Under the pieces are notes generated by a model, which saw only the letters and a program-made list of their open reading frames with translations, did not search any database and was not told the origin of the DNA. Shown piece by piece: positions 4,889-36,832 of a stretch of DNA of 46,955 nucleotides (its first letter is position 1; each line of letters begins with the position of its first letter). A program made the position numbers and the translations under genes. This stretch comes from Novosphingobium sp. (GTDB taxonomy: Bacteria; Pseudomonadota; Alphaproteobacteria; Sphingomonadales; Sphingomonadaceae). The stretch is from contig JAGREN010000006.1 in the NCBI GenBank assembly GCA_020446505.1, forward strand, positions 20,137-67,091. Reading direction: 5' to 3'.

Positions 4889-4900
4889 AGCACATATGTG
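4889..4900. promoter_or_regulatory. Candidate regulon operator (SDR / crotonase divergent promoter)
   Basis: AGCACATATGTG. The core CACA-TA-TGTG is a perfect inverted repeat with a 2-base spacer. It lies 61 bases before the SDR start and 85 bases before the crotonase start, so it could control both. It matches the window-wide consensus A(T/G)CA(C/T)(A/G)NNTGTG in full. Confidence 0.6.
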
Positions 4901-4985
4901 TTAGTCGACAAATTGACAGCAATCCGCTTCCTTCGTTCCACGATACCGGCTTACGAAGAAGCCGAATGATGAGAGATTTGCCTCA

Positions 4986-5771
4986 ATGACTGATCTTGTT
5001 CTGAGTGAACTGCGCGACCAAATCGGTATCGTAACGCTCAACAATCCGGCTCAGCGCAATGCGCTGAGCGTCGACATGCGCATACAGCTCGCTGGTGTCG
5101 TGCGCGCGCTATGCGAGAACGATGACTGCCGCGCGATCATCCTCACCGGGGCCGGCGGAAATTTCTGCTCGGGCGGCGATCTTAAGTCCCGCCTTTCGAA
5201 CGTGGAGGAACCTCCACAAATCCGCACGCCGCGCTTGCTTTCCATGCTGCATGAAATCATTCGTCTCATCGTCGATGGCGACAAGCCAGTGATCGCCGCG
5301 GTGGACGGACATGCGACCGGGGCGGGGCTGTCGATCGCTGCCGCTTGCGATTTCATAGTGGCTGGTCCGACCGTGAAGTTCTGCGCCTCCTACGGCCGGG
5401 TCGGCCTCATCCCGGATGCCGGCCTGCTTTGGTCGCTTCCGCGCAGGATCGGCGCAGTCCGCGCCCGCCATCTTATTTTGACCGCTGCGCCCGTCGATGT
5501 GGAGACGGCAATGCGAATCGGGCTTGCGGACATGGCGGCCCCGCCAGATAACACGGTATCCGCAGCGGTCGAGATCGCCCAAAGCTACCTGCGAGTCGCC
5601 CCACTCGCTGCGACCCGCGTGAACGAAGTGCTTTCCAACGAAGGCCTGACACTTGAAGAAGCGTTCCACGCAGAGCTGCGCATCCAGCCAGAACTGACCG
5701 GAAGCCTTGACTACATGGAGGCGCGCGCCGCCTTCGCAGAAAAACGGCATCCCCGTTTCATGGGTAAATGA
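4986..5771 (+). CDS. Crotonase-fold enoyl-CoA hydratase/isomerase, PaaG-like
   Basis: Protein of 261 residues with the crotonase oxyanion-hole segments (NFCSGGDLKSR near 59-69 and DGHATGAGLS near 107-115). The two glutamates of classical enoyl-CoA hydratase are absent: their positions hold Ser (GAGLSIAAACD) and Tyr (CASYGRVG). Instead there is Asp144 in GLIPDAG, the position used by PaaG-type ring-epoxide isomerases and delta3,delta2-enoyl-CoA isomerases. An isomerase acting on a cyclic or unsaturated acyl-CoA is therefore more likely than a hydratase. ATG start follows a GATGAGAGA stretch. It stands alone on the plus strand and converges with the thioesterase gene 16 bases later. Confidence 0.85.
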   Translation: MTDLVLSELRDQIGIVTLNNPAQRNALSVDMRIQLAGVVRALCENDDCRAIILTGAGGNFCSGGDLKSRLSNVEEPPQIRTPRLLSMLHEIIRLIVDGDKPVIAAVDGHATGAGLSIAAACDFIVAGPTVKFCASYGRVGLIPDAGLLWSLPRRIGAVRARHLILTAAPVDVETAMRIGLADMAAPPDNTVSAAVEIAQSYLRVAPLAATRVNEVLSNEGLTLEEAFHAELRIQPELTGSLDYMEARAAFAEKRHPRFMGK

Positions 5772-5787
5772 GAACTCACGGCTGCGA

Positions 5788-6216
5788 TCACGCTAGGCTG
5801 GCGAAGTGGCTTCGCGCCTCTGATGTCAGTTCGACTGACGCCTTGAGGGCTGCGCTCGCGTGGACCAGCGTGCTGGCCGACAGGACACGGCAGACACCGT
5901 GCTGATAGATCGCCTGATCGAAAGCCAGCGAAGTCCGGCCGATCCTGGCAACGCGCGACGCGATGACGACTTCGCCAGGCCAGACGATCTCATCATGATA
6001 ATCGACTTCGACGCGCACCAGCACGAAGCGGCACCCGGCTGCTTCAGCCACGAAATCGCCGTATCGCAGCAATTCGGAACGTCCCGATTCAAGAAAAGTG
6101 TTGATGACCGCATTGTTGACATGTCCGAAGGCGTCGGTGTCGCCGAACCGCGTCTTCTCGGTGGTCAGGACCGGGAAATCACCGATCTGCGGCAAGGCGC
6201 GTCGTGCTTCGACCAT
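5788..6216 (-). CDS. Acyl-CoA thioesterase, 4HBT/FadM-like hotdog protein
   Basis: A 142-residue single hotdog domain with the motif GDTDAFGHVNN at about residues 25-35. This matches the helix-start motif with catalytic Asp of the YbgC/FadM/4-hydroxybenzoyl-CoA thioesterase group. It would hydrolyse an acyl- or aroyl-CoA in the cytoplasm. The ATG is only 3 bases after the stop of the DUF35 gene, so the two form a tight operon. It may recycle CoA from stalled pathway intermediates; the exact substrate cannot be read from the sequence. Confidence 0.85.
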   Translation of the reverse strand: MVEARRALPQIGDFPVLTTEKTRFGDTDAFGHVNNAVINTFLESGRSELLRYGDFVAEAAGCRFVLVRVEVDYHDEIVWPGEVVIASRVARIGRTSLAFDQAIYQHGVCRVLSASTLVHASAALKASVELTSEARSHFASLA

Positions 6217-6219: not shown

Positions 6220-6621
6220 TCAGACAAGCCTGAACACGGGGATGAACACGTCGTCGTTCTTCTCGAACGCGACTTCAACCGCCGCGCCGATCGCTACGCA
6301 CTCGACGGTTTCGGCAAGGATGCGCGCCGTGATCCGGACACCTGGCTGATCGTCCAGTTCGACGATTCCGATGGCATAGGGGACTGCGAGGCCCGGAACC
6401 CACGCCTGGCGATTGATGGTGAAAGTGGCGACTGTGCCTTTGCCCGATGCAGGCCGGGCCTCGACGTCGCGGGACAGGCATCTCGGGCAGATAAGCTGCG
6501 GCGGATGGATGCGATGATCGCAGGCGTTGCAAGCGGTAATGCGCAATCGCCCGTCTGCACCGCCGGTCCAGAACGTTTCGGTTTCGGGTGCCACGGCGGG
6601 CAAGGGAAAAGGGACAGTCAT
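6220..6621 (-). CDS. Zn-ribbon/OB-fold protein (DUF35), partner of a lipid-transfer thiolase
   Basis: A 133-residue protein with the classic DUF35 layout: an N-terminal helix ending in TFWTGGADGRL, then a complete zinc ribbon (CNACDHRIHPPQLICPRC, four cysteines), then an OB fold (ATFTINRQAW...). Relatives such as ChsH2 bind thiolase-like lipid-transfer proteins; together they form hydratase or aldolase complexes in steroid side-chain breakdown. The thiolase-like gene at 6702 is divergently transcribed 80 bases away, the expected partner. First gene of a two-gene operon with the thioesterase. ATG preceded by GGAGAG. Confidence 0.85.
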   Translation of the reverse strand: MTVPFPLPAVAPETETFWTGGADGRLRITACNACDHRIHPPQLICPRCLSRDVEARPASGKGTVATFTINRQAWVPGLAVPYAIGIVELDDQPGVRITARILAETVECVAIGAAVEVAFEKNDDVFIPVFRLV

Positions 6622-6701: not shown

Positions 6702-7871
6702 ATGTTGAGTGCATCCATCACAGGTGTAGGAATGTCGCAGGTTTCGCGCAGCGTCATACGCCCCTGCATGGATCACCTCGCCGACGCCGCGCTTGAGGCG
6801 ATGGCCGATGCCGGCCTCACCCGCGACGATATCGACGGGATTACGACCTATCCCGGCAAGACCGATGCGAGCACCGGCATGTCGCCGCTGGGCTGCACCG
6901 AAGTGCGCGATGCGCTCGGCCTCAAGACCCGCTGGCACAGCGGCTCGTCCGAAGGGGCCGCCCAAATGTCGCCGATCATGATCGCGGCGATGGCGGTCAG
7001 CACCGGACAGGCGCGCCATGTCCTGTGCTTTCGCGCACTCAGCGAATACGCGGCGCAAGGCGGCGGGGGCCGCAGGGGAAGCGTCACTGTCAGTCCCGAA
7101 GGGTTGAGCAACTGGACCCAGTGGCTCGTACCGGTAGGGGCGCTCTCCGCGGCTAACTGGGCTGCACAGTACGCGATGCGGCGGGTGCATGAATTCGGCG
7201 TGACACGCGAAATGCTGGGTGCACAGTGCGTGCTGCAACGCGCCAACGCGCAGCACAATCCGCGCGCCATCTTCCACGGCAAGCCGCTGAGCATGGCAGA
7301 CTATCTGGGCACGCGGATGATTTCCGATCCGCTTTGCATGATGGACTGCGATGTCCCGGTGGACGGAGCCTGCGTGATCATAGTCTCGGCTTCCGACGCG
7401 GCTCGCGATTGCGCCAGAAAGCCGATCAGGATCGCCGCCTTCAGCGCCGCTTTGCAGGGGCGCGACAGCTGGGATCAACGCCCCGACTTGACGCAGATGG
7501 CATCCGAGGACTGCGGGCGCGACATCTGGAACAACACGGATTTCGGTCCCGGCGATGTTGATGTGGCCGGGCTGTATGACGGGTTCAGCTGCTTCGTGCC
7601 GATGTGGCTTGAATCGCTTGGGTTCTGCGCTCGCGGTGAGGGCGAACGCTTTATTGCCGACGGCCAGACGCGGCTTGGCGGTTCGCTACCAGTCAATACC
7701 GGCGGCGGGCAACTCTCGGCCGGGCGGCTGCACGGTTTCGGGCACCTGCACGAGGCATGCGTGCAATTGCGCGGCGATGGCGGCGGCCGCCAGGTTCCCG
7801 GTGCAAAGACGGCGATCGTCGGCATGGGAGGCGGCGCGCTCGCAGGCGCGATGCTTCTGCATTGCGAATAG
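6702..7871 (+). CDS. Thiolase-like lipid-transfer protein (SCP-x/Ltp type)
   Basis: A 389-residue thiolase-fold protein of the non-condensing type. The position of the thiolase nucleophile cysteine appears to hold Ser in WHSGSSEGAAQ. Family landmarks include DYLGTRMISDPLC, VAGLYDGFSCFVP (the YDGF tyrosine region) and NTGGGQLSAGRLHG (active-site His region). Ltp2-type enzymes with this pattern make a retro-aldol cut of beta-hydroxyacyl-CoA side chains in complex with a DUF35 protein. Start ATG at 6702 follows AGAAGGGA; the longer open frame upstream would cross the promoter region. Its likely partner is the divergent DUF35 gene. Followed by the CaiB transferase and an ACAD pair on the same strand. 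Confidence 0.85.
   Translation: MLSASITGVGMSQVSRSVIRPCMDHLADAALEAMADAGLTRDDIDGITTYPGKTDASTGMSPLGCTEVRDALGLKTRWHSGSSEGAAQMSPIMIAAMAVSTGQARHVLCFRALSEYAAQGGGGRRGSVTVSPEGLSNWTQWLVPVGALSAANWAAQYAMRRVHEFGVTREMLGAQCVLQRANAQHNPRAIFHGKPLSMADYLGTRMISDPLCMMDCDVPVDGACVIIVSASDAARDCARKPIRIAAFSAALQGRDSWDQRPDLTQMASEDCGRDIWNNTDFGPGDVDVAGLYDGFSCFVPMWLESLGFCARGEGERFIADGQTRLGGSLPVNTGGGQLSAGRLHGFGHLHEACVQLRGDGGGRQVPGAKTAIVGMGGGALAGAMLLHCE
6717..6728. promoter_or_regulatory. Operator-like element inside the thiolase-like gene start
   Basis: ATCACAGGTGTA matches the window consensus at 11 of 12 positions. The 14 bases at 6715-6728 match those at 25656-25669 at 13 positions. It sits at codons 6-9, which encode an ITGVG stretch common in this family, so the match may be coding constraint. 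Confidence 0.25.
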
Positions 7872-11858: not shown

Positions 11859-13187
11859 CTAGGCGACCTCGTCCAGACGTCCGTCATATTGCGCCACATC
11901 CGTCATCATCCTGACGATATCGCCCGAGGTGACGCGGCGCTCGACTTCGCCATCGGCAAGCGGCGCTGGACCGCCGAACGACTTGGGCACCGTGTCGACA
12001 TGAACGGCCTGGGCGCGCAGCGCGGCCACTGTGCAGTTCTCACGCCCGCCCATCATCCCGAACGCATCGAAGTTGGCGCGCTTGAGAGCGTTGCGATGAG
12101 TAATCTTGTCGATCTGTTCGTCGCTTAGATGCCTGACTGTTTCAAACAGTCGGTCGGCGCTCTCGGGCCAGACGGTGTCGGAATGCGGGTAGTCGCATTC
12201 ATAGGCGATATTGTCTTCACCGATCATGTCGATGTTCTTCAGACCGAACGCATCGTCAATGAAGCAGGTAAGGAAATGTTCTCGGAACACCTCGCTGGGC
12301 TTCTTCCCGCCGAAGTCGGCATGTGTCCAGGCCTTGTGATGCTCGTTCACGAAATCGGCTCTCTCTAGGAAGTAGGGTATCCAACCAATTCCGCCCTCCG
12401 AAAGCGAAATCTTGAGCGGATAGCGCTTCAGCGCATCGAGGTGGAGCCAGTCGGCCGCCGAATTGACAATCGAGATCGGCATGGTGGTGATCCACGCGTC
12501 GATCGGCGAATCCATCGAGGCGTGCGGCGCTTGCGCACCCGAGCCGATGTGGATGTTGATGAGCACGTCATTATCGACGCACGCTTTCCAGAACGGATCC
12601 CAGTGCTCGCTATGGATGCTGGGATGTCCCTTGGTCGCAGGGTTGTCGCTGAACGTGATCGAATGGCAGCCCTTCCGGGCGACCCGTTCAATCTCGGCGA
12701 CTGTCTCCTGGACGTTCCAGAATGGCATGACCGCAGTCGGGATGTGCCGTCCCTTGTAGGTTCCGCACCATTCGTCGATGTGCCAATCGTTGTAGGCCTG
12801 AAGGATGATCCGGGCGAGATTGAGATCCTCGAACTTGTGGAACAGGCCGCCATCGAACTGGATCACGCTCGGGAAGTTGATCGACGCAAGGATGCCGTTG
12901 GCATTCATGTCGTCGATCCGCGAATGGATGTCCCAGCTACCCTTTCGCATTTGGCTGTAGGATACCGGCTCGCAGCCGTATTCTTCCTTGACGCGCCCAA
13001 CCACGGCATTGAGCCCAATGTTTCCTGCACGGCGGCCTTCGTATAGCCAGTACTCCACGCCGTTCGCATCCCTGCGCAGTTCGGGCATAAGATGCTTGTG
13101 CTGGGCCGACGCGTTGTTGCGGTACATGTCCGGCGGTTCGACGATGTGATCGTCCACGCTGACAATGATCATGTCTTCGAGTTTCAT
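11859..13187 (-). CDS. Amidohydrolase-2 family metal-dependent hydrolase
   Basis: A 442-residue protein of the amidohydrolase family that includes ACMSD-like and resorcylate decarboxylases. The N-terminal motif VSVDDHIVEPPDM gives metal-binding His. Later landmarks are NIHIGSG, SLSEGGIGWIPYFLER and ECDYPHSDTVWPES, with the conserved Asp and His. It may hydrolyse a C-C or C-N bond or decarboxylate; families like this occur in sphingomonad and actinobacterial catabolic clusters. Start ATG at 13185-13187 follows GAGAGGAA; an ATG 24 bases upstream lacks it. It follows the amidase gene on the same strand after 195 bases that contain a candidate operator, so it may have its own promoter. Confidence 0.82.
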   Translation of the reverse strand: MKLEDMIIVSVDDHIVEPPDMYRNNASAQHKHLMPELRRDANGVEYWLYEGRRAGNIGLNAVVGRVKEEYGCEPVSYSQMRKGSWDIHSRIDDMNANGILASINFPSVIQFDGGLFHKFEDLNLARIILQAYNDWHIDEWCGTYKGRHIPTAVMPFWNVQETVAEIERVARKGCHSITFSDNPATKGHPSIHSEHWDPFWKACVDNDVLINIHIGSGAQAPHASMDSPIDAWITTMPISIVNSAADWLHLDALKRYPLKISLSEGGIGWIPYFLERADFVNEHHKAWTHADFGGKKPSEVFREHFLTCFIDDAFGLKNIDMIGEDNIAYECDYPHSDTVWPESADRLFETVRHLSDEQIDKITHRNALKRANFDAFGMMGGRENCTVAALRAQAVHVDTVPKSFGGPAPLADGEVERRVTSGDIVRMMTDVAQYDGRLDEVA

Positions 13188-13304: not shown

Positions 13305-13316
13305 ATCATATATGTG
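13305..13316. promoter_or_regulatory. Candidate regulon operator upstream of the amidohydrolase
   Basis: ATCATATATGTG fits the shared consensus fully (core CATA-TA-TGTG). It is 119 bases before the amidohydrolase start. The site before the TonB receptor has the same distance, and both contain ATCATATATG. Confidence 0.5.
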
Positions 13317-13382
13317 TGGCGATTGGCCTTGAGCGCACGTGAAGATGGAGCCGCGCCACGCACAGCGCACGATGCGAATGGA

Positions 13383-17511: not shown

Positions 17512-17628
17512 CTCGACCTCCCAGGACGAACCGATCGCCGCTATCACGCGCGGCTTCTTGGCCCAATTTAACGATGCGGCGGGATAGGCGGCCTTTCCCC
17601 CGAAAGCATCACGCCCCCTTTCCAACAA

Positions 17629-17640
17629 CGCATATATGAT
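17629..17640 (-). promoter_or_regulatory. Candidate regulon operator upstream of the TonB receptor
   Basis: On the minus strand it reads ATCATATATGCG, one mismatch from the consensus, 119 bases before the receptor start. It lies in a 324-base gene-free region (17512-17835) between the receptor and the TauD-type gene. The rest of that region shows no further gene. Confidence 0.4.
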
Positions 17641-17755: not shown

Positions 17756-17767
17756 ATCACATTTGCG
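17756..17767. promoter_or_regulatory. Second, weaker operator-like element before the TonB receptor
   Basis: ATCACATTTGCG has one mismatch from the consensus (TGCG for TGTG). It lies 244 bases before the receptor start, just past the end of the TauD-type gene. It could be an auxiliary site or chance. Confidence 0.3.
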
Positions 17768-17835
17768 ATTTTCACGGCGCCGGTTCAGCGAAGATCAGGC
17801 CGAAGTCAGATCCGCCTCCGGCCGATCTTGAACGG

Positions 17836-22551: not shown

Positions 22552-22604
22552 TCCGTCTGCGTCATTGGTCGCCGCGCGATAACAACTGTTGAGGAGAGGA
22601 AGCC

Positions 22605-25657: not shown

Positions 25658-25669
25658 ATCACAGGTGTG
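25658..25669. promoter_or_regulatory. Candidate regulon operator upstream of the second amidohydrolase
   Basis: ATCACAGGTGTG contains CACA-GG-TGTG, a perfect inverted repeat, 130 bases before the amidohydrolase start and just past the IclR-type gene end. A second imperfect GACA-CA-TGTC repeat lies closer, at 25575-25584. Confidence 0.55.
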
Positions 25670-25685
25670 CACGAATTTCGGGCTT

Positions 25686-26612: not shown

Positions 26613-26632
26613 GACATCACATCTGTGATGTC
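26613..26632. promoter_or_regulatory. Strongest candidate operator, upstream of the IclR-type gene
   Basis: GACATCACA (26613-26621) and TGTGATGTC (26624-26632) are perfect 9-bp inverted arms around a 2-base spacer. The core matches the window consensus. It is 36 bases before the IclR-type start, in the 303-base region 26577-26879 that separates it from the divergent ACAD operon. Confidence 0.7.
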
Positions 26633-26879: not shown

Positions 26880-28040
26880 GTGAGCGCGGCCAATCTCTAT
26901 CTTGAGCGCCCTGCCCTGACCCCCGCGGCCGAAGACCTGCGGGAAGAGGTCCGCACCTTCATTGCCGAACAGCGCGACAGCGGTGCCCTGCCGCCCCCGG
27001 AGCGGATCGGCCTGGGCTTCGACGTCGACATGACCCAGCGGATTGCTGATCGCGGATGGATCGGGCTTACCTGGCCCCGCCAATACGGCGGACAGGAGCG
27101 TTCCGCTCTGGAACGCTATGTGATGAACGAGGAGCTGCTCGCCGCGTCAGTTCCAGTCGGGGCGCATTGGGTCGCTGACCGGCAGTCTGGTCCGGTGCTC
27201 CTTAAATTCGGCACGGAGGAGCAGAAGCGCTTCTACCTTCCGCAAATCGCCTCGGGAAACTGCTACTTCTGCATCGGCATGAGCGAGCCGGAATCCGGTT
27301 CTGACCTCGCTTCGCTCAAGACGAGGGCCGATCGCGTCGCGGGCGGATGGAGGATCAACGGACGCAAGATTTGGACCACCAACGCTCACCGTGTACACTA
27401 CATGATCGCGCTTGCCCGCACATCGCCCGCCGAAGGGGCCCGGCACGCAGGCATCAGCCAGCTCATCATCGATCTGAAGGCACCGGGGGTCACGGTCACG
27501 CCTATCATCTCAATGGCTGGCGAGCATGACTTCAACGAGGTTCTCCTTGAAGATGTCCTGGTGCCCGACGAGGCGCTGATCGGAACCGAAGGCAACGGGT
27601 GGAACCAGGTATCGGCCGAGCTGGCGTACGAACGCTCGGGACCGGAACGCTGGCTCTCATCGTTCCGCCTGATCAGTGAATTGGTCGATGTGCTAGGCGC
27701 CGATACGCAGCCTTCCACGCAAGAAGAGCTGGGCCGGCTAATCTCGCACCTGCTGGCGCTGCGGCAGCTTTCGCTCGCGGTCGCGGGCATGATCGAGCAG
27801 GGCAAGTCCCCCAACATCGAGGCTTCGATAGTGAAGGATCTGGGCACCAAGTTTGAGCAAGAGGCGGTGCGCGTGGCACGCAACATCGCCTCGGCCGAAG
27901 ATCTTGTTGGCAACGGCAGGGCTCCGCGCCTGCGCGCGCTGCTCATGCACGCCCAGCAATACGCACCCGCGTTCACCATTCGCGGCGGAACCAACGAGAT
28001 CCTGCGCGGCATCATCGCGCGTGGGATCGGCTTGAGGTAG
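26880..28040 (+). CDS. Acyl-CoA dehydrogenase, probable catalytic subunit of the second pair
   Basis: A 386-residue ACAD with SEPESGSDLASL, KIWTTNAHRVHY and Glu251 in AYERSGPERW, at the isovaleryl-CoA-dehydrogenase-type catalytic position. The C-terminal TIRGGTNEILRGIIARG lacks the other Glu position. It would introduce a double bond into an acyl-CoA. The start is the GTG at 26880, preceded by CTAGGAG. The next ACAD gene follows 6 bases later and lacks the Glu, so the two probably form one enzyme. Divergent from the IclR-type gene across a region with its operator. Confidence 0.86.
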   Translation: MSAANLYLERPALTPAAEDLREEVRTFIAEQRDSGALPPPERIGLGFDVDMTQRIADRGWIGLTWPRQYGGQERSALERYVMNEELLAASVPVGAHWVADRQSGPVLLKFGTEEQKRFYLPQIASGNCYFCIGMSEPESGSDLASLKTRADRVAGGWRINGRKIWTTNAHRVHYMIALARTSPAEGARHAGISQLIIDLKAPGVTVTPIISMAGEHDFNEVLLEDVLVPDEALIGTEGNGWNQVSAELAYERSGPERWLSSFRLISELVDVLGADTQPSTQEELGRLISHLLALRQLSLAVAGMIEQGKSPNIEASIVKDLGTKFEQEAVRVARNIASAEDLVGNGRAPRLRALLMHAQQYAPAFTIRGGTNEILRGIIARGIGLR

Positions 28041-28046
28041 CGCCCG

Positions 28047-29084
28047 ATGAACGAGAACCAGACATTCTTTCGCGCCACGATCGAACGCATTCTGGCCGAT
28101 ACTGTCGGCAAGGCCGAGCTCGACCACGCCGAAGAACGCCAGCTTCCCGAAGCGTTCTTCTCAGTGCTGGTCGAGAACGGCATTACCAGTATGCTCCTGC
28201 CCGAGGACACAGGTGGGATCGGCGCCAGCCTCGGCGACGCCGCGATCATCCTGCGCGCCGCAGGCGCCGCGGCGGCGCCCGGCCCATTGCTCGAAACCAT
28301 GCTTGCGCAGAAATTGCTCGCCAGCAGCGGTCTTGGTCCGGCGCAGGGCCTGTTGAGCCTCGTCTTTATCAATGAAGCTCCCGGCCTGGTCGGTTCGCGC
28401 TGGTCCGATGCCGTGTTGCACGACGTGCCCTGGTCGCAGGCAGTCGAGAAAATCCTGATCGTCTCGCGCAGCGGGAACGAAGCACGGCTTCTCGTCAGCG
28501 ATCCGGCCGGCTGGACGACCGAGCCGGGCATGGATGCCGCGGGCGAGCCGCGAGATCTGTTGACCGCCGAGGCGATCGACGTCACCTCGGCCAACTGCGG
28601 AGATTACGATAGTTGGCTATGTGCCGCATCGATGCTGCGCGCGGCTCAGATTCTCGGCAGTGCCGAGTGGTCCCTCCGACGCAGCATCGAATATGCGTCG
28701 GAGCGCAAGCAGTTTGGCCGCGAGATCGGCAAGTTTCAAGCTGTCCAGCAAATGCTCGCCGAACTCGCCGGGCACATTCTCGCGGCAGCCACCATTGTCG
28801 AAGCTGCGGCGGACGATTGCCATCCCACGATGATCGCTGCGGCGCGATCGCGGCTTGGCGACGCAGCGGATGCGGCAATCGCGATCAGCCATCAGGTCCA
28901 CGGGGCACTCGGCTTCAGCCAGGAATACGCGCTGAATTCGCGGACACGCCGCCTGATGGCATGGCGCGACGACTTCGGCAGCGTTCTTTACTGGCGGCGG
29001 GTGCTTGCTCGCCAGTTCACCGGCTTGAGCCGCGAGGCATTCTGGCCGGCAATTGCCGATGCCGGCGCCACCGTACCGCGCTGA
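28047..29084 (+). CDS. Acyl-CoA dehydrogenase, probable non-catalytic subunit of the second pair
   Basis: A 345-residue ACAD-fold protein, short for the family. The C-terminal domain is clear: YASERKQFGREIGKFQAVQQM and QVHGALGFSQEYALN. The helix that should carry Glu reads WLCAASMLRAAQILG, and no C-terminal catalytic Glu is present. It starts 6 bases after the stop of the catalytic partner and probably supplies part of the FAD or acyl pocket. It ends 7 bases before the convergent thiolase-like gene. Confidence 0.82.
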   Translation: MNENQTFFRATIERILADTVGKAELDHAEERQLPEAFFSVLVENGITSMLLPEDTGGIGASLGDAAIILRAAGAAAAPGPLLETMLAQKLLASSGLGPAQGLLSLVFINEAPGLVGSRWSDAVLHDVPWSQAVEKILIVSRSGNEARLLVSDPAGWTTEPGMDAAGEPRDLLTAEAIDVTSANCGDYDSWLCAASMLRAAQILGSAEWSLRRSIEYASERKQFGREIGKFQAVQQMLAELAGHILAAATIVEAAADDCHPTMIAAARSRLGDAADAAIAISHQVHGALGFSQEYALNSRTRRLMAWRDDFGSVLYWRRVLARQFTGLSREAFWPAIADAGATVPR

Positions 29085-29091: not shown

Positions 29092-30246
29092 CTACAGCGT
29101 TGCTGTCGTTCCCCAGATGGTGACCGCCTGACTGGACAGAACGCCGCCATTCCCGTGGGCAAGCGCCAAATTGGCACCTTCAATTTGCCGCTCGTTCGCG
29201 GTTCCGCGCAGCTGGACAGCCGCCTCGATCATCGTGAACAGGCCGTACATGCCCGGATGGGCGAACGACAGTCCGCCGCCGTTGGTGTTGACCGGCAGGC
29301 GCCCGCCCGGTGCAATCGCGCCCTGCTCGACGAAACGGCCGCCCTCCCCCTTTGGACAAAAGCCCAGATCCTCAAGGAACAGGATCGTGTTGATCGTGAA
29401 TGCATCATAGAGCTGGACCACGTCGATGTCCGAAGGCCCCACACCGGCTTGGGCATAGGCGCGCGGCGCCGCCTCGCTGGTCGCGGTAACCGTAAGGTCA
29501 GCGAGTTGGGAGATGTTGCGGTGCCAGGTCGCGGATGCGGCGCCGAGCAGGAATACGGGATCGCGCTTCAGATCGCGTGCCCGGTCGGCGCGGGTCATGA
29601 CCACCGCCGCAGCGCCGTCGGTGACGAGGCAGCAGTCGCGCACCGTCAGCGGATCGGAAACCATGCGCGCGCTTAAAACGTCCTCGATCGTCAGGTCATC
29701 GCGCAGGTTAGCGAGGGGGTTGAGCTGCGCCCACTTGCGCGCCGCGACCGCGACCTCGGCAAGGTGTGCGCGCGTGGTTCCGTACTCATGCATGTGGCGT
29801 TGAGCGGCGAGCGCATAGGCAGTCGTCGGATTGCGCGGTTTGTATGGGGCCTCATAGGGGAAAGGAAGCCCGCCGCTTCGCACCAGCCCGCCCGCACCGG
29901 AGCGCTGGTTGCTGCCATAACAGATCAGCACGGCATCGCAGAGCCCCGCATCCAGCGCCAGCGCGGCCCACATCGCGTGGATCTGGAATGCAGAGCCGCC
30001 CGTGCGAGTGCTTTCGACCAGCTTCGGACGAATACCGAGATATTCAGGCACGCTCATGGCGCTGAACGGGTCCTCCGGCAAGGTCGAGAAGACCGCATCG
30101 ATATCGCCAACCCGAAGCCCGGCGTCCGCTATCGCGCCTATTGATGCCTTGGCCAGCAGTTCGATCGCGGAAAGACCGCTTTGCGAATCGGTTCCGCAGA
30201 GATCGATGCCGACGATAGCGGTGCGTCCTCTTGGAAATCCGCTCAT
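29092..30246 (-). CDS. Thiolase-like lipid-transfer protein (second copy)
   Basis: A 384-residue thiolase-fold protein. Landmarks are STRTGGSAFQIHAM (the nucleophile-cysteine region, no Cys), VDVVQLYDAFTINT written as IDVVQLYDAFTINT (the YDAF tyrosine region) and NTNGGGLSFAHPGMYG (active-site His region). It is of the SCP-x/Ltp kind and may make a retro-aldol or thiolytic cut. Start ATG at 30244-30246 overlaps the DUF35 stop as ATGA, so the two are coupled and probably form a complex. Last gene of the seven-gene operon. Confidence 0.85.
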   Translation of the reverse strand: MSGFPRGRTAIVGIDLCGTDSQSGLSAIELLAKASIGAIADAGLRVGDIDAVFSTLPEDPFSAMSVPEYLGIRPKLVESTRTGGSAFQIHAMWAALALDAGLCDAVLICYGSNQRSGAGGLVRSGGLPFPYEAPYKPRNPTTAYALAAQRHMHEYGTTRAHLAEVAVAARKWAQLNPLANLRDDLTIEDVLSARMVSDPLTVRDCCLVTDGAAAVVMTRADRARDLKRDPVFLLGAASATWHRNISQLADLTVTATSEAAPRAYAQAGVGPSDIDVVQLYDAFTINTILFLEDLGFCPKGEGGRFVEQGAIAPGGRLPVNTNGGGLSFAHPGMYGLFTMIEAAVQLRGTANERQIEGANLALAHGNGGVLSSQAVTIWGTTATL

Positions 30247-30626
30247 GGCGCAATCTCGTCGGCAGGTGAAAACAGAACCGCCGGAGCGCCATCGACTTCG
30301 CCGACATGCGCAGCGACAACCATGCCGATACGGACCGCGTCGGGTTCGCAATCAACGATCCGGCTCATCATCCTTGCGCCTTCCGTCAGATCGACCAATG
30401 CGACGACATAAGACGGTTCGGGCGACTTGTTGCAAACGATGGTGAAGGAATAGATCGTTCCCGATCCGGAAGCTTCCACCCATTCCAGATCGGTCTGCCC
30501 GGTGCCCGGCTGCGCGATGCGCGGGAAGAATACGTGCTCTCCGGTCGAGATCACGCGCTGGATCATGAATCGGCCCTGAGCAAGAAAGCCTTGGAATTGG
30601 GCCTCGGGGCGAAGGGGTTCAGCCAT
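30243..30626 (-). CDS. DUF35-type OB-fold protein lacking the zinc-ribbon cysteines
   Basis: A 127-residue protein with the DUF35 plan: an N-terminal AQFQGFLAQGRFMIQR, the middle segment EHVFFPRIAQPGTGQT where the zinc ribbon should be, then the OB fold (GTIYSFTIVCNKSPEP). The four ribbon cysteines are replaced; the only cysteines lie in the OB part (IVCNK, DCEPD). It probably still binds its thiolase-like partner, to which it is coupled by an ATGA overlap. Start ATG at 30624-30626 overlaps the ligase stop by 8 bases. The longer upstream frame lies inside the ligase gene. Confidence 0.8.
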   Translation of the reverse strand: MAEPLRPEAQFQGFLAQGRFMIQRVISTGEHVFFPRIAQPGTGQTDLEWVEASGSGTIYSFTIVCNKSPEPSYVVALVDLTEGARMMSRIVDCEPDAVRIGMVVAAHVGEVDGAPAVLFSPADEIAP

Positions 30627-32733
30627 GATGCTGCGTTCTCGTATCGACACCGCAAGCAACCGCAAGCGCATCGACCGCGACCACGCCCTGCCCTTGGGGA
30701 TAGACGAAAACGGGATTGAGATCGATCTGCTCGATGCCGGTCTCCGTCCGTGCAAGCTCGGCAACGCGCGATACTAGGTCGGCAAGCGCATCCATGTCCG
30801 CCACCGCCTGGCCTCGCGTGCCGAGGAGGATGGGCGCAATCTTCAGCGAAAGGATCAACCGCCTGGCCTCCTGCCGTGAAATCGGCGGGGGCGCGAAGAC
30901 CACGTCCTTCAGAACCTCGAGGTAGATACCGCCCGCGCCGACCATGACGAGCGGCCCGAAATCGGGATCGCGGACCACGCCGATCACCAGTTCGTGCCCT
31001 TTCGGCATCATTTTCTGCACCAGCACGCCTTCGATCCGGGCCTCGGGTGCATGACGCCTTGCATTGGCCATGATCTCGTCAAATCCGGCTTCGGCCTGCC
31101 CGTCCGCGACACCGAGCCTGACGCCGCCAGCTTCGGTCTTGTGCGCGATATCCGGTGACTGGATCTTGAGCGCCACCGGAAATCCCATTTTAGCCGCCAC
31201 CTGAGCCGCCGCACCGCGATCGGTGACGAGCGCGGCTGGCGGCGCCGGGATGCCATACGCCGCGATCAGCCTGCTCGTCGCCTGTTCATCAAGGACGCCC
31301 GGAGAAAGGGAGGGTAGCTTCGTCATGCCTGGTGGCGCATGCGTTTCGCGCGCTCGCCACCGCTCCTGAAAAGCCGCATAGCGCTCGATCCCTTTAAGCG
31401 CTGCGGCACACTGGCTGAAGGTCGAGAAGCCGACGCTGCCCATCCCGGCAAGCGCGGTTAGGTTTTCATCGATCGGCAGGATGTGCGAGGTGAACACGAT
31501 CGGCTTGGTCGCGTTTGCCAGCACGGGAGCAAGCTGCGGCGAAAGCTTGTCGATGCGTCCGGGCAGTTGCAGGCCCAGATTGACGATCATCGCATCGACC
31601 TCGTCGGTATCCTGCAAGCGTTCAAACACCTGCATCAGGCTCTTGCCGCCATCGCCGATCACGGCCGCGGTCACATCGACCGGATTTTCGGTCGAGCCGT
31701 AAGACGGCACCCATTGATCAAGATCGCAGCGCAGACCGTCGCTCAGCAGGGGGACGTCAATACCGGCATTGCCGAGGATATCGGAGGCCCAAGCCCCTGC
31801 CCCGCCAGACGTTGAGATTACCGCAGCCTTGCGCACCCTGCGGCGCGGGAATCGCGCCAGACCCGCAGCGATGGCGAGGATCTCGTCCTGATCCCTCGCG
31901 CGTATGATGCCGTACCGATCAAACATCGCCTCGTATGCTGTGTCGGCGCCGGTGAGGTGGGCGGTGTGCGAAATCGCGGCGCGCTGACCGGCTTGCGAAC
32001 TGCCGATCTTCATCACGACCAGAGCCACGCCAGCGTCCGCCGCCTTTGCGGCAATCGGAGCGAGCCGGGAAGGAGTCTTGAGTCCTTCAATGAGCGCGAC
32101 GATGACGCCGCTCTGCCCCTCCTCGACGAGCTGCTCGATGAAATCGAGGCATTCCAGATCGCTCTCGTTTCCGGTCGTTATCACGGCGTGGAAATCGAGA
32201 TGCTGGGCGAGGCCGCGTCCGAACAGCGCCATACCCAGCCCGCCGGACTGCGAGACGATCGAGATCATGCGGCCCGGATGAACCGCCGGAAAGCCAGCCT
32301 CGAGCGCATCTTCCGCAGCGCCGCTGAACGTTGCCGCAAGCCCACGTGTCGCCAGCAGACCGATGGTGTTCTGGCCGGTATAGCGCAACCCGCTGTCGCC
32401 TACTGCTTGCGCGAGCGCGACCTCGTCTACATCGGCGGAAAGGATGACTGCGGCCCTCGCACCCGATTCCACTGCCTCGCGGACCACGTCCGGAACTGTC
32501 TTGCCCGGCGAAGCGACAAGCACCAGTTCGGCCCCGCCCGGTATTGCGCCAAGCGATCGATGAACCTCCAGGCCTTGCATGGTGCCACCACCGGGGTGCA
32601 CGGGGTAAATCGGGCCATCGTAGGCGCTAGCAATGGCGTTCTTGAGCAATTTGCCGCGCAGGATCGAGGTATCGTTCGACGCGCCGACGATCGCTACGCT
32701 CTTGGGATGAAAGAAGGCGTCGAGGAGTGTCAA
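30619..32733 (-). CDS. ADP-forming acyl-CoA ligase (acetate-CoA ligase family), fused subunits
   Basis: A 704-residue ligase joining CoA to a carboxylic acid with ATP to ADP. The CoA-binding domain (VAIVGAS near 13-19), ligase-CoA domain (SIVSQSGGLGMALFG, TTGNESD) and C-terminal ATP-grasp domain (FPVALKIQSPDIAHKTEAGG) are in order. The phospho-His is His256 in ISHTAHLTG. Sphingobium FerA, a feruloyl-CoA synthetase, belongs to this family. The start is a TTG at 32731-32733 overlapping the previous stop as TTGA, with GAAAGG 8 bases upstream; this start is less certain. Fifth gene of the seven-gene operon. Confidence 0.88.
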   Translation of the reverse strand: MTLLDAFFHPKSVAIVGASNDTSILRGKLLKNAIASAYDGPIYPVHPGGGTMQGLEVHRSLGAIPGGAELVLVASPGKTVPDVVREAVESGARAAVILSADVDEVALAQAVGDSGLRYTGQNTIGLLATRGLAATFSGAAEDALEAGFPAVHPGRMISIVSQSGGLGMALFGRGLAQHLDFHAVITTGNESDLECLDFIEQLVEEGQSGVIVALIEGLKTPSRLAPIAAKAADAGVALVVMKIGSSQAGQRAAISHTAHLTGADTAYEAMFDRYGIIRARDQDEILAIAAGLARFPRRRVRKAAVISTSGGAGAWASDILGNAGIDVPLLSDGLRCDLDQWVPSYGSTENPVDVTAAVIGDGGKSLMQVFERLQDTDEVDAMIVNLGLQLPGRIDKLSPQLAPVLANATKPIVFTSHILPIDENLTALAGMGSVGFSTFSQCAAALKGIERYAAFQERWRARETHAPPGMTKLPSLSPGVLDEQATSRLIAAYGIPAPPAALVTDRGAAAQVAAKMGFPVALKIQSPDIAHKTEAGGVRLGVADGQAEAGFDEIMANARRHAPEARIEGVLVQKMMPKGHELVIGVVRDPDFGPLVMVGAGGIYLEVLKDVVFAPPPISRQEARRLILSLKIAPILLGTRGQAVADMDALADLVSRVAELARTETGIEQIDLNPVFVYPQGQGVVAVDALAVACGVDTRTQHHG

Positions 32734-33557
32734 ATCCGGTGCCTTTCGAGAAAGCCTTCGAGCGCCTCGGCGACAAGATCATTCTCGTCGCCCACGATCA
32801 TGTGGCGCGCACCGGCTATGACCTCGACCTCTATCTGTGGAAGAACCGCGTGCAGGGCATCAACACCGTCCTGGGTTACGACTTCGCTGAGTTCGCACCA
32901 AGCGAGGAGGACAGGGCATTTGACGTTCCCGGCATAGCGTTCGAGCAGCTCGCTTCCCGCTCCAAGGCCGATGTTGTGGATCGGATCGCGATAGCTCGCG
33001 TCCCAGTGCCAGTGCCAGCGTCCATCCTCGGATTGGCGCATGTTGCGCCTCAGCTTCTCGCCCACGCAAGGCGTCGGCACCCCGCCCCTCGAAGCCGCCA
33101 GATGCGCGGCCGCTTCATCGGGCGATGCAAACCCGTCGGTGGCAACAGTCGTCTGAACGATCTGCGCGATCCCCGCCGGTGACGACCGGGGCACTGAATC
33201 GATCAGCACCAACCCGGCTACGACTTCGGGAAACGAACCAGCCGCAGCGAGGCAGATCTTGCCGCCCAGCGAATTGCCGCACAAGATCACCGGCCGCCCA
33301 ATATCGCGCACAATTGCCGCGATATCCTCTGCCTGTCGCGGATATGAATAATCGCTAGCGCGGTCGCTTTCGCCATGGCCGCGAACGTCCACTGTGATCG
33401 TCCGGCGTCCGTGCTCGGCAAGCCTGGTCGCAACGCGCTGCCAGCTATGGCGCGTCTGCCCCATTCCCCCGACCAGGATGAGCGGATTTCCGTCGTTCGG
33501 ACCAAATAAGTCCGCAGAGAGGCGAATTCCGCCTGCGCCCTCAAACCACGCCGTCAT
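32730..33557 (-). CDS. Alpha/beta-fold hydrolase
   Basis: A 275-residue hydrolase. The nucleophile elbow GNSLGG and the catalytic His in GARHMIVGD are clear, and the oxyanion motif is ILVGGMGQTRHSW. The acid position is probably near WCELSEVV. It may hydrolyse an ester, a lactone or a C-C bond in a ring-cleavage product. It overlaps the crotonase stop by ATGA and the ligase start, so it is tightly packed inside the operon. Substrate unknown. Confidence 0.85.
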   Translation of the reverse strand: MTAWFEGAGGIRLSADLFGPNDGNPLILVGGMGQTRHSWQRVATRLAEHGRRTITVDVRGHGESDRASDYSYPRQAEDIAAIVRDIGRPVILCGNSLGGKICLAAAGSFPEVVAGLVLIDSVPRSSPAGIAQIVQTTVATDGFASPDEAAAHLAASRGGVPTPCVGEKLRRNMRQSEDGRWHWHWDASYRDPIHNIGLGAGSELLERYAGNVKCPVLLAWCELSEVVTQDGVDALHAVLPQIEVEVIAGARHMIVGDENDLVAEALEGFLERHRI

Positions 33558-34357
33558 TCGCCAGTAAACGTCGGGCTGCGCTTGGCGAGAATGGCTTCGA
33601 TCGCTTCGCCATGATCCTTGCTGATGTTCGACAGCCCTTCAAAGGCCATACCAACATCCATCATTGCCTGGGCCAGTTGCCGCAGCGGCAGGTTGATCGC
33701 CGTTTTGGTGCCGTAGATCGCGTTGCTCGCCGCACCGGCAAGCTTGGCGGCCCACGCCTCGCCGATCGCATCCATCTGCTCGAAACTAGGAGCCGATTCC
33801 GCGATCAGGCCCAGTTCGGCGGCTTCCTTGCCCAGGATAGGCTCGCCTAGGAGCAGGAACTTGCGCGCCTTGGCAAAGCCCATCTGCTGCGGCCAGATCA
33901 GCGAACCGCCGTCGCCGGCGACCAGCCCGATGTTGACATGCGGGTCGGCGATCTTGGTATCGTCAACCGCAACGACGAGGTCGCAGAGCAGCGGCAGGGT
34001 GGCACCCAGCCCCATCGCCGCACCCTGCAGCTTCGCTATGGTGGGCTTGGGACAATCCAGCACGGTGTGGACCAGCCGGCGTGAACCCCAGAGTCCCTTG
34101 AAGTAGAGACCGGGGTCATCGACCTTGCGCTTCATCTGGGCGAAATCGCCGCCACCGCAAAACACCTTACCCTCTCCCGACAGCACGACGCAGCGCACCC
34201 GCTCATCGAACGTCGCCGCCTGAAAGGCGTCCGAAATCTGCTCATTGACCGGATCTGTGATGATGTTGCGCTTTTCCGGGTTGTTCAACGTGATGCGCAG
34301 GATCGCTCCGTCCAGAGTCACCCGGATCAGGTCAAGGCGCTCGTAATTTGTGTTCAT
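33554..34357 (-). CDS. Crotonase-fold enoyl-CoA hydratase/isomerase family protein
   Basis: A 267-residue crotonase with VFCGGGDFAQM and LQGAAMGLGATL oxyanion-hole segments. The two hydratase glutamates are replaced by Thr120 (GLGATLPLLCD) and His140 (ADPHVNIG). Asp149 in GLVAGDGG sits near the site used by PaaG-type isomerases. Isomerase or lyase activity is therefore more likely than classical hydration. Start ATG at 34355-34357 follows GGAGAT. Third gene of the operon, 25 bases after the ACAD before it and overlapping the hydrolase gene. Confidence 0.86.
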   Translation of the reverse strand: MNTNYERLDLIRVTLDGAILRITLNNPEKRNIITDPVNEQISDAFQAATFDERVRCVVLSGEGKVFCGGGDFAQMKRKVDDPGLYFKGLWGSRRLVHTVLDCPKPTIAKLQGAAMGLGATLPLLCDLVVAVDDTKIADPHVNIGLVAGDGGSLIWPQQMGFAKARKFLLLGEPILGKEAAELGLIAESAPSFEQMDAIGEAWAAKLAGAASNAIYGTKTAINLPLRQLAQAMMDVGMAFEGLSNISKDHGEAIEAILAKRSPTFTGE

Positions 34358-34382
34358 GATCTGGATCTCCGAAAGCGGCGGC

Positions 34383-35525
34383 TCAAGCCGGACGATGCTG
34401 CCACAGCGAGCCGAAGCGGGCGAGATGGAATGACGTGTCGCCGAACAGGCGATCAATGATGTTCAGCCGGATATAGTGGTGGCCGATGTCGAGCTCTTCC
34501 GACACGCCCATGCCGCCATGAATCTGCACCGCCTGGTAGCCGACGAACTTGCCAGAGCGGCCGACTTGCGACTTGGCAGCGGAAACCATCCGCGCCCGCT
34601 CGATCGGATCGCCATCGAGCGCCATGACCGCAACCAGCGCCATCGATTTGGCGGTCTGGGTCTGGATGTACATGTCCGCCATCTTGTGCTGAAGCACCTG
34701 AAAGCGGGAGAGCGGGGCCTCGTATTGCACCCGGTTGCGCGCGTATTCAGCAGTCGCCGGGATGAGGTATTCCATCGCGCCTACGGCTTCCGCGCAAGCT
34801 GCTGCTGTTGCATGATCAAAGGCGACGTCCAGTAGCAGGCACCCCTCGTCAGGGGTGCCGAGGACGTTTTCTCGCGCGACCGGCACGTTCTCGAGTGCGA
34901 CCTCCGCGGCACCGAAGCCGTCAATCATGCGGAAGTTGCGGCGCGAGACACCGGCCGCAGCCGATTTGATCAGGAACAGGCTCACGCCTTCACGTTCACC
35001 GGCGATCCCAGCGCACCGGGCGGCAACAATGAGACGGTCCGCCCGATCCGCGTTCACCACCACCGGCATTCGACCCGACAAGCGCCAGCCTGCTCCGTCC
35101 TTCAGTGCCGTGAAGGTCGTGTCTTGCGGGCTGTGCAGGACGTGCGTCCCGCATGCCGCAAGGGCCAAGTGGCTTTCCCCGGCAATGACCGCGCCGATTT
35201 CCTCCTCTCTGAGGCCCTCGGGCAGACCTTCGATCAGCAAGCGGCCACACAGGACCGCAGTATAGAGGTAAGGCTGGGTCACCAGATGCCGCCCGAAGCG
35301 GTCCATCACGACCGCCACGTCGGCCGGCGACGAGGAAAAGCCGCCGAGTGCTTCGGGAAATGCCGCGCCGATCAGGCCCAGCTCAGCCAGTTCGCGCCAG
35401 AAAGCCGTCTCGGCAGCAGGGTCGTGGAGCAGGTTCTTGCGCTGGCGCAGATCATGCGTGTCGGTCAGGAAACGATCGAGCGTGTCCCAAAGCATCCGCT
35501 GGTCATCGGAGTAGTTGAAATCCAT
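34383..35525 (-). CDS. Acyl-CoA dehydrogenase, probable non-catalytic subunit of the third pair
   Basis: A 380-residue ACAD-fold protein beginning MDFNYSDDQR. C-terminal landmarks are YARNRVQYEAPLSRFQVLQHK and QIHGGMGVSEELDIGHH. The middle domain lacks the usual SEPxAGSD loop, and the helix that should carry Glu reads LLDVAFDHATAAACAEAVG. No YEGT-type Glu is present. It probably pairs with the ACAD encoded 10 bases upstream, which has the Glu. Start ATG at 35523-35525. Confidence 0.83.
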   Translation of the reverse strand: MDFNYSDDQRMLWDTLDRFLTDTHDLRQRKNLLHDPAAETAFWRELAELGLIGAAFPEALGGFSSSPADVAVVMDRFGRHLVTQPYLYTAVLCGRLLIEGLPEGLREEEIGAVIAGESHLALAACGTHVLHSPQDTTFTALKDGAGWRLSGRMPVVVNADRADRLIVAARCAGIAGEREGVSLFLIKSAAAGVSRRNFRMIDGFGAAEVALENVPVARENVLGTPDEGCLLLDVAFDHATAAACAEAVGAMEYLIPATAEYARNRVQYEAPLSRFQVLQHKMADMYIQTQTAKSMALVAVMALDGDPIERARMVSAAKSQVGRSGKFVGYQAVQIHGGMGVSEELDIGHHYIRLNIIDRLFGDTSFHLARFGSLWQHRPA

Positions 35526-35535
35526 TGACGCCCCG

Positions 35536-36705
35536 TCAGACCTTGAGCAGCCGGCGCGCGATGATGTTGCGCTGCACTTCCGAGCTGCCTCCATAGATGG
35601 TGAGCTTGCGCCTATCGAAGTACTGCTGCGCCATGTGCTGCAGTTCGAACGGCACTATCGGCAATTCTCCCTCTGGCAAGGTGCCGGGATGCACCAGGCT
35701 TTCGATCTCGCCCAGCTCCAACAGCAGTTCGGTCAGCGCCTGCATGATCTCGCCCCCGCGCACCTTGATGACCGATACTTCCGGACCCGGTGCTTTGCCC
35801 GATGCTTCGTCGGCCAGCACGCGATAGGTCGTGTATCGCAGCGCCAGCAGATCGGTCTCCACCTCGGCGATGCGCCGCGCCATCACCGCATCGCGCACGG
35901 GGCGGGCCTCGAAACGCTCCCGAACCTGCCGGGCGAACGCCATGTTGACGCCGATCCAAGCTCCCATCAGCCGCTCGTTGCCGAGCAGGAACCTGGTGAT
36001 GTCCCACGCCCCCCCTTCTTCGCCGACGAGATTGCCGACCGGAACGCGGACCTCTTCGATCTGGACTTCGTTGACAGTCAACATGCCGCCGAGCGTATAG
36101 ATCGGGCTTACCGTCACGCCGGGCTGTTCCATGTCGATCAGCAGGAACGAGATGCCCGCCTGCTTGGGTCCGTCAGCAGATGTACGTACGAGGCAGAAAA
36201 TCTTGTTGGCGAGATGCGCATAGCTGGTCCACAGCTTGGTGCCGGTGACGATGTAGTCGTCACCTTCGCGCACCGCCCGCATCTGGAGATTGGCGAGATC
36301 CGATCCGGCCTGCGGTTCGGAGAACCCCTGACACCACCAGTCCTCACTGGAAAGGATACGCGGCAATAACTCGCGCTTCTGCGCTTCGCTACCAAACTCG
36401 ATTATGACCGGTCCGAGCAGGTCCTGCGATACGTGATTGAGGCGCGGGGCGCCCGCGATCCCGGATTCCTCTTCCCACAGAAACCGCTCCATCGGACCCC
36501 AGCCCGGCCCGCCATACTCCTTCGGCCAAAGCGGAACGTTCCAGCCGCGCTCGCGCAGCAGCGAGTGCCAGTGATTGTGCTCCTGCTTGGTGAGCTTACC
36601 GCCGGCAAGCGTTCTTGCGGCATAGTCAACTGGCAGGCTTTCAGCGAAGAAGGCGCGAAATTCGCTTCGCAGCGCTTCAACCGTTCCTCCCAGGGACATA
36701 TCCAC
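35536..36705 (-). CDS. Acyl-CoA dehydrogenase, probable catalytic subunit of the third pair
   Basis: A 389-residue ACAD, first gene of the seven-gene operon. It has SEPQAGSDLANL, KLWTSYAHLANK and Glu244 in LLGNERLMGAW, at the isovaleryl-CoA-dehydrogenase-type position. The C-terminus is TIYGGSSEVQRNIIARR. The GTG at 36703-36705 is chosen because AGGAG lies 9 bases before it. An ATG 6 bases later (36697-36699) and a GTG at 36730-36732 are alternatives. The operator at 36821 lies upstream, shared with the divergent ligase gene. Confidence 0.87.
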   Translation of the reverse strand: MDMSLGGTVEALRSEFRAFFAESLPVDYAARTLAGGKLTKQEHNHWHSLLRERGWNVPLWPKEYGGPGWGPMERFLWEEESGIAGAPRLNHVSQDLLGPVIIEFGSEAQKRELLPRILSSEDWWCQGFSEPQAGSDLANLQMRAVREGDDYIVTGTKLWTSYAHLANKIFCLVRTSADGPKQAGISFLLIDMEQPGVTVSPIYTLGGMLTVNEVQIEEVRVPVGNLVGEEGGAWDITRFLLGNERLMGAWIGVNMAFARQVRERFEARPVRDAVMARRIAEVETDLLALRYTTYRVLADEASGKAPGPEVSVIKVRGGEIMQALTELLLELGEIESLVHPGTLPEGELPIVPFELQHMAQQYFDRRKLTIYGGSSEVQRNIIARRLLKV

Positions 36706-36820
36706 TTCGATTTGCTCCTTTTCGACCTCCACTCTTCAGTCTTGGCGACATCGAACAGCGGACTGGACTATGATCTCCTATCGGGCGATGCAGTTGCCGG
36801 ATAGGTTTCCCGCGATGCAT

Positions 36821-36832
36821 AGCATGTATGTG
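36821..36832. promoter_or_regulatory. Candidate regulon operator (seven-gene operon / second ligase)
   Basis: AGCATGTATGTG fits the consensus with G at the variable fourth core position. It lies 115 bases before the ACAD start and 85 bases before the ligase start, so it could control both divergent operons. Confidence 0.45.

Follow-up and report, generated by a model that had tools for sequence, protein, structure and literature searches.

Which protein controls a catabolic gene cluster whose promoter gaps share one short palindrome, and how far would that control reach? The question is raised by a 46,955-bp stretch of a Novosphingobium sp. genome (GCA_020446505.1, contig JAGREN010000006.1, positions 20,137 to 67,091), here called the window, in which the 14-bp palindrome ATCAYA-NN-TRTGAT occurs in ten copies. 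An earlier reading of the letters alone (the original prediction) had described a shorter unit, A(T/G)CA(C/T)(A/G)NNTGTG, and proposed one dedicated regulon under an IclR-type protein; genome-wide enrichment, intergenic placement, a spacer control and conservation around several relatives of that protein, with exceptions, bear this out. From the sequence evidence we consider it probable, at about 0.82, that the palindrome is the operator of the cluster-encoded IclR regulator (25686-26576, minus strand), which would control a single catabolic regulon.

A palindrome in the promoter gaps of the cluster

All eight full matches of the shorter pattern, AKCAYRNNTGTG, were recovered where they had first been placed (8 places, 10 strand matches), against a mean of 0.60 and a maximum of 4 in 100 shuffles, and the one-mismatch copies listed at 17629 (minus strand) and 17756 are likewise present. 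Beyond the eight full matches, the copies at 17627 and 17756 also fit a 14-bp inverted repeat. Laid side by side, the sites form a recurring palindrome, as had been claimed, of a longer unit than described, ATCAYA-NN-TRTGAT, whose position 6 is nearly always A, since seven of the eight genomic places of the AKCAYA form are in the window. The perfect core CACANNTGTG (CACA-NN-TGTG) is present four times and each time intergenic, as predicted; its expectation is 0.47 here instead of the roughly 0.7 given earlier, with at most 3 in 100 shuffles. The ten copies are as follows, without strand, with scores from a symmetric matrix built from eight window sites (17627 and 36821 left out; match threshold usually 13).

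4889-4902: operator AGCACATATGTGTT, between the short-chain dehydrogenase/reductase (SDR) gene SDR1 (minus strand) and the enoyl-CoA hydratase gene ECH1 (plus strand); matrix score 20.8
13305-13318: operator ATCATATATGTGTG, upstream of amidohydrolase 1 (minus strand); matrix score 18.2
17627-17640: operator AACGCATATATGAT, upstream of the TonB-dependent receptor (minus strand); matrix score 17.3, outside the matrix training set
17756-17769: second operator ATCACATTTGCGAT, upstream of the TonB-dependent receptor (minus strand); matrix score 18.8
18811-18824: operator AGCACAAGTGTGAT, between the TauD dioxygenase (minus strand) and the bicupin (plus strand); identical 14-mer in the related locus L005
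19850-19863: operator ATCATAAATGTGTG, upstream of the crotonase ECH2 (plus strand); matrix score 16.9
20901-20914: operator ATCATACATGTGCT, upstream of SDR2-SDR3-SDR4 (plus strand); matrix score 19.1
25658-25671: operator ATCACAGGTGTGCA, upstream of amidohydrolase 2 (minus strand); matrix score 14.7
26616-26629: best operator ATCACATCTGTGAT, between the IclR gene (minus strand) and the acyl-CoA dehydrogenase (ACAD) gene ACAD3 (plus strand)
36821-36834: weak operator AGCATGTATGTGCT, between the seven-gene operon (minus strand) and ADP-forming CoA ligase 2 (plus strand); matrix score 13.8, outside the training set

The copy at 26616 is the best of the window, being a perfect palindrome over 18 bp (26614-26631, ACATCACATCTGTGATGT), and the weak copy at 36821 carries G at position 6. 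Site centres lie 46-138 bp before the start codon, apart from the far TonB site (252 bp) and that of ACAD3 (258 bp); the TonB receptor has two upstream sites, 129 bp apart, and the gaps at 4889, 18811, 26616 and 36821 are divergent, so that a site in each can serve two transcription units.

Genes were called by a purpose-written script from codon usage and start context, which gave 39 genes in the window. All ten copies fall in nine intergenic gaps, each upstream of at least one gene (binomial P ~1.5e-10), in a window of which intergenic DNA makes up about 10% (4,877 of 46,955 bp). At scores of at least 13 the matrix finds 10 intergenic matches and a single coding one, at 26245 within the IclR gene; 500 permuted matrices with unchanged composition average 0.31 intergenic matches, and none of them reaches 10. 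When each site was left out in turn, nine of the ten outscored every non-site position of the window, and 25658 was beaten by one, that at 26245. The spacing of the arms is specific as well: among spacers of 0-10 bp, at up to 2 mismatches, spacer 2 has 14 near-matches in the window and the ten others 1-4 each. Furthermore, a blind search of the intergenic DNA (4096 half-sites with 9 spacers, 36,864 palindromes, eight shuffles) placed ATCACA-N2-TGTGAT second (z 7.1), behind the variant AGCACA-N2-TGTGCT; this z is a rank and not a probability, and other palindromes exceed the shuffles too.

The sites are concentrated in this part of the 3.18-Mb draft genome, where the window contributes 10 of the 20 strand matches of AKCAYRNNTGTG. 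Counted as places, 8 of 18 lie in the 47-kb window (1.5% of the genome) and 10 in the remaining 3.13 Mb, a density from which 0.15 places would be expected in the window (Poisson P 5.5e-12). Position 6 is G in 9 of the 10 outside places, and 7 of the 8 genomic places of the A form are in the window, the eighth (C110:22167) lying between a fabH-like and a MerR-family gene. For the full palindrome at up to one mismatch, 5 of 8 genomic places are in the window, one of the five being coding. Three outside places were looked at for membership of the regulon in trans, C110:22167 and near-matches on C43 and C67 in apparently coding frames, and all three were treated as chance. The 20 kb before the window hold no intergenic matrix match. 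A reversed-pattern control is no clean null for a palindrome and carries no weight here. Equal density of sites in coding DNA or elsewhere in the genome, named at the outset as the result that would speak against a dedicated regulon, was looked for and did not occur.

The IclR-family regulator and its relatives

Beside the best copy of the palindrome lies the gene of the proposed reader:

25686-26576, minus strand: IclR-family regulator, 296 aa (Pfam HTH_IclR 6.5e-11, IclR_C 1.8e-17; recognition helix YPQSSTSALLRSL)

Both the N-terminal HTH_IclR and the C-terminal IclR_C domain score above the curated Pfam cut-off, which places the protein in the family, and it is the sole transcription regulator that Pfam recognises among the 39 called genes. 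Autoregulation is suggested because the best palindrome lies 46 bp before the IclR start codon; with nine further sites before cluster genes, the arrangement is that of a regulator acting on its own promoter and on adjacent operons.

We regard this protein as the most likely owner of the sites because the same sequence recurs around its relatives in several other bacteria. Close relatives are rare: with the own genome counted, and with no more than a few candidates scored for each genome in the order and family searches, they were found in 2 of 396 order genomes at E 1e-60, in 1 of 61 near-relative genomes and in 3 of 397 family genomes at E 1e-50, and further relatives came from two metagenome-assembled genomes (MAGs) and from plasmids. 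The cluster in genome G188 (IclR identity 67%) shares the regulator and six other window proteins at 38% identity or more, and its 80 kb hold 7 intergenic and 0 coding matches of at least 13, an intergenic count reached by 2 of 500 permuted matrices. Two of its matches precede its own IclR gene, two TonB receptor genes are preceded by matches of 12.0 and 13.9, and spacer 2 gives 9 near-matches, other spacers 1-7. Genome G526 (IclR 45%) has 7 intergenic and 3 coding matches of at least 13 in 60 kb (1 of 500 permuted matrices); all seven intergenic matches precede a gene, including one for a TonB receptor, spacer 2 gives 15 near-matches and the others 1-6, and the blind search ranks ATCACA-N2-TGTGAT first of 36,864 (z 8.7; the eight shuffles reach 4.8). 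In L005 (IclR 62%), where the contig end cuts off the IclR promoter, an intergenic 14-mer identical to that at 18811 precedes OB-fold/amidohydrolase genes, besides 2 coding matches.

Similarly, the Variovorax plasmids PBL-E5 and SRS16 (IclR 56% and 55%) have 2 matches each in gene gaps and 0 in coding DNA. For the Variovorax stretch L094, 6 of 1000 permutations reach 2 intergenic matches, and in L102 the matches occupy the same two gaps (10 of 500 permutations over the whole stretch); at one of the sites the central base differs between the plasmids and the arms are kept. A promoter gap of the same cluster also holds a 16-bp palindrome with spacer 4 (L094:21657-21672, ATCACATGCATGTGAT), which may represent the same operator with another spacing.

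Among more distant relatives, whose recognition helices were compared by alignment over 13 positions, L093 (IclR 31%, helix agreeing at 8 of 13) has ATCACACATGTGAT before its IclR gene, L068 (38%, 11 of 13) has GCATCACG-TC-CGTGATGC (ATCACG-TC-CGTGAT) upstream, and L092 (34%, 10 of 13), a paralogue in the window's own genome, has TTCATACTTGTGAA (TTCATA-CT-TGTGAA) before the gene. In a search of 249 genomes, IclR matches were found in 27, all of them within the 397-genome family set; the exact motif is present in 7 of these, and in five it lies no more than 25 kb from an IclR gene (G000, G422, G519, G526 and G529, and not G427 or G203). Related or different strong palindromes stand upstream of the IclR genes of L068, L069, L074, L076, L081 and L082 (ATCAYG-TC-CGTGAT, ATCGC..GCGATG, AAAGTGT-CG-ACACT), and such variety offers a start for a helix-to-operator code.

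IclR-family proteins bind palindromic operators as dimers or tetramers. The mechanism suggested by these findings is one in which an IclR dimer would read two inward-facing ATCAYA half-sites through the helix YPQSSTSALLRSL, acting on its own promoter and on about eight other promoter gaps. The protein would be switched by a ligand, probably the substrate of the pathway or one of its early intermediates, an acid or a CoA thioester. IclR-family members include both repressors and activators (PMC8222616); release from repression would be the default guess for the sign, activation an alternative. Promoter hexamers gave no sign of regulation (3 promoter-like sites, against 2.9 in shuffles).

Counter-evidence and alternative explanations

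A number of results weigh against this assignment. That the site precedes most catabolic operons is true of about ten transcription units, before which the ten sites stand, and not of several others, there being no strong site before the thiolase (6768), CaiB (8065), ACAD (9461) and HADH (42223) genes. That orthologous clusters keep the sites proved right for G188, G526, L005 and Variovorax and wrong for the Caulobacteraceae MAG G648 and for L052/L062. In G648 (IclR 57%, identical helix) 54 kb hold 1 intergenic and 1 coding match, a result that 85 of 500 permuted matrices reach, and ATCACA-N2 ranks 32,462nd in the blind search; enrichment is absent despite an ACAD3-ACAD4 pair beside the IclR gene and ECH3-ACAD5-ACAD6 nearby. 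L052/L062, around the second IclR of G647 (52%), show 1 intergenic and 3 coding matches. Even in the supporting clusters the agreement is partial: the IclR genes of G526 and Variovorax have no strong site in front (in L094 neither match precedes the IclR gene), the blind rank in G188 is only 37 (z 4.3, which the best shuffle also reaches), and spacer 2 is unremarkable in L094 (2 near-matches, other spacers 0-5). In G519 one perfect palindrome does stand 2.8 kb from an IclR gene, but the motif is not enriched there; for G422 the enrichment is marginal (15 of 500 permutations). Across the family, a match of at least 15 lies just upstream in 3 of 30 IclR loci (L064, which is the window's own, L065 and L093), and 22 score below 10.5; with related palindromes elsewhere, the motif therefore belongs with some members of this IclR branch and not with the family at large. 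Finally, G188 and G526 each have a TetR-family gene in the cluster.

Two plasmid clusters were not counted as support: that of Tistrella (IclR 43%) has one weak intergenic match (12.6), before the IclR gene, and that of Sulfitobacter (IclR 43%) has three matches of 12.0-15.8, all inside coding genes. A Sphingobium herbicidovorans plasmid region, chosen for its amidohydrolase, has no matrix score above 10.5. On another contig of the Caulobacteraceae MAG, a perfect AGCACATATGTGCT (L057:8134) is found some 200 bp ahead of the estimated start of a TonB-receptor gene; it may or may not be related to the IclR system.

The alternative that survives best, unlikely as we judge it to be, is that the sites belong to a regulator whose gene lies outside the window, either a second IclR paralogue or a protein of another family, and that the IclR gene is just one of its targets. 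Three other IclR homologues are encoded elsewhere in the genome, and one of them, L092 (34%), with TTCATACTTGTGAA in front, may read a similar site; the contigs of these paralogues, however, have no exact pattern match. Candidates from other families are the TetR-family genes of the G188 and G526 clusters, a LuxR-type gene in G526 and, in Variovorax, a LysR gene next to that of the IclR protein. Pfam recognises no TetR, LuxR or LysR protein among the 39 window genes, and IclR is the only regulator type that recurs in all compared clusters with sites. The TetR candidate is further weakened in that the G188 and G526 proteins align over only 47 residues of the DNA-binding domain, and in that the genome of the window has only weak relatives of the G188 protein, on other contigs (best match 27% identical). 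A strong site (18.3; L011:17294-17307, 57294) stands just before the G188 TetR-family gene, which the IclR protein may control or whose product may itself read the site. Further regulators in the G188 and G526 clusters are unlikely given a survey of the best 25 of 38 Pfam families in each, with 9 and 10 genes scanned singly.

By comparison with the cluster-encoded IclR protein as reader, two other explanations have very little left to them. That a short motif accumulated by chance, or through base composition, in intergenic DNA richer in AT is highly improbable: the exact AKCACANNTGTGAT does occur somewhere in 44 of 397 family genomes, too noisily to assign, and only 1 of 30 fetched exact-motif loci has an IclR match within ~1.5 kb, yet permuted matrices average 0.31 against 10, other spacers give 1-4 against 14, shuffles never reach the count, and the 20 kb beside the window lack any intergenic match. 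Just as improbable is it that the cluster merely uses the site of a global regulator, CRP/FNR for example; the CRP half-site TGTGA is shared with ours, but this reading is disfavoured because the sites are so concentrated in 1.5% of the genome, with the arms moreover in the opposite order (TCACA-N2-TGTGA here) and no match to TGTGA-N6-TCACA in the window, G188, G526 or L094.

Genes of the cluster and known IclR operators

The genes that the sites adjoin are these:

4134-4829, minus strand: SDR1
4986-5771, plus strand: enoyl-CoA hydratase family ECH1
11859-13187, minus strand: amidohydrolase 1 (Amidohydro_2)
14896-17511, minus strand: TonB-dependent outer-membrane receptor
17836-18711, minus strand: TauD-family dioxygenase
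18903-19802, plus strand: bicupin, distantly like gentisate 1,2-dioxygenase
19945-20778, plus strand: enoyl-CoA hydratase family ECH2
20972-23414, plus strand: three SDR genes
24304-25527, minus strand: amidohydrolase 2 (Amidohydro_2)
26880-29084, plus strand: acyl-CoA dehydrogenase pair ACAD3-ACAD4
29092-36732, minus strand: seven-gene operon of two ACADs, enoyl-CoA hydratase, alpha/beta hydrolase, ADP-forming CoA ligase, OB-fold ChsH2-like protein and thiolase
36918-40230, plus strand: ADP-forming CoA ligase 2 and ACAD7

The enzymes fit the breakdown of a bulky acid through CoA thioesters, and the predicted regulon would take in the TonB uptake receptor, the TauD and bicupin oxygenases, amidohydrolases, SDRs, hydratases, paired ACADs, ADP-forming CoA ligases and the thiolase with its OB-fold partner. 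The site would delimit the gene set of a single degradation pathway, so far undescribed, and would tie uptake receptor, oxygenases and CoA enzymes together. Two separate pairs of thiolase and OB-fold (ChsH2-like) genes are present (6220-6621 with 6768-7871, and 30243-30626 with 29092-30246); such ChsH2-type pairs are a feature of steroid side-chain aldolase systems, and together with the paired acyl-CoA dehydrogenases they presumably resemble steroid side-chain enzymes. The 20 kb ahead of the window, which have no intergenic matrix match, carry a paralogue of amidohydrolase 1 (53% identity; L013:6478-7779). Beside the cluster, a serine recombinase (Resolvase/Recombinase) is found with DUF2924 and DUF3489 proteins at 264-3279, which suggests a mobile island; no tRNA was found in the window.

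How does the predicted operator compare with those of known IclR proteins? The nearest subfamily by NCBIfam is TIGR02431 (PcaR/PcaU/PobR; E 2.4e-21), yet the protein stands outside it because it scores 76.2 bits against a cut-off of 284.75. PheR of Sphingobium SHPJ-2 (PMC13273656) is likewise an IclR-family protein of a sphingomonad catabolic cluster, a repressor of phenanthrene genes with uptake in the title of its paper, but its footprint and core GCAACG, as given there, differ from the present site. A notice on Novosphingobium DNA affinity purification sequencing (DAP-seq; PMC12352068) lists IclR proteins, and the word motif is absent from its text. The original prediction knew of no published regulator with this site. 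The full palindrome ATCAYA-N2-TRTGAT was indeed not found described in a literature search, outside which supplementary motif tables lay, leaving an earlier description possible; its half-site, in contrast, is that of the published TsdR operator.

Suvorova and Gelfand 2021 (PMC8222616) distinguish two IclR operator types, group 1 (GKTYCRYW3-4RYGRAMC) and group 2 (TGRAACA-N1-2-TGTTYCA). With group 2 the present site shares the inward palindrome, the central ACA-NN-TGT, the predicted regulator family and the predicted control of the own and adjacent genes, whereas the outer four arm positions differ (CATC at 26616, TGRA in the published consensus); at up to 3 mismatches, the spacer-2 form of that consensus has 2 window matches, against 2.45 by chance, and none falls on a site. 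The group 1 consensus with spacer 3 fares no better at the same stringency (14 window matches, 11.85 by chance, none on a site); a sequence one mismatch from it, GTTCCATTTTTCGGAAC, lies at 4393-4409 inside the SDR1 gene and is probably there by chance. The regulon proposed here is also larger than the own gene with one or two adjacent operons that PMC8222616 calls general.

The operator of TsdR, the gamma-resorcylate regulator of Rhodococcus jostii RHA1, is GTGTGRYTSSMRTCAYAC in a table of PMC8222616. By inspection of the operators alone, not the proteins, it has the same half-site, RTCAYA(C), but in outward arrangement, and the TsdR-type operator has 0 window matches at up to 3 mismatches. 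We give an even chance to a broader proposal, namely a separate class of IclR operators in which TsdR-like half-sites are turned inward and which some, though not all, of the IclR proteins that have a (Y/F)PQSS helix would recognise. Operator and regulator would have travelled together through the Alpha- and Betaproteobacteria, placing different pathways that work on CoA thioesters under regulons of uncommon size that span the whole pathway; the one here would take in nine promoter gaps, that of the uptake receptor among them. Two dimerisation modes of IclR proteins are proposed in PMC8222616, and TsdR-like arms turned round bear on whether these proteins dimerise in two ways on DNA. Together, the comparison makes it well supported that the regulon is real and of a known kind and that its operator sequence is a new variant, matching neither published IclR consensus, which may be used for annotating IclR regulators of this branch.

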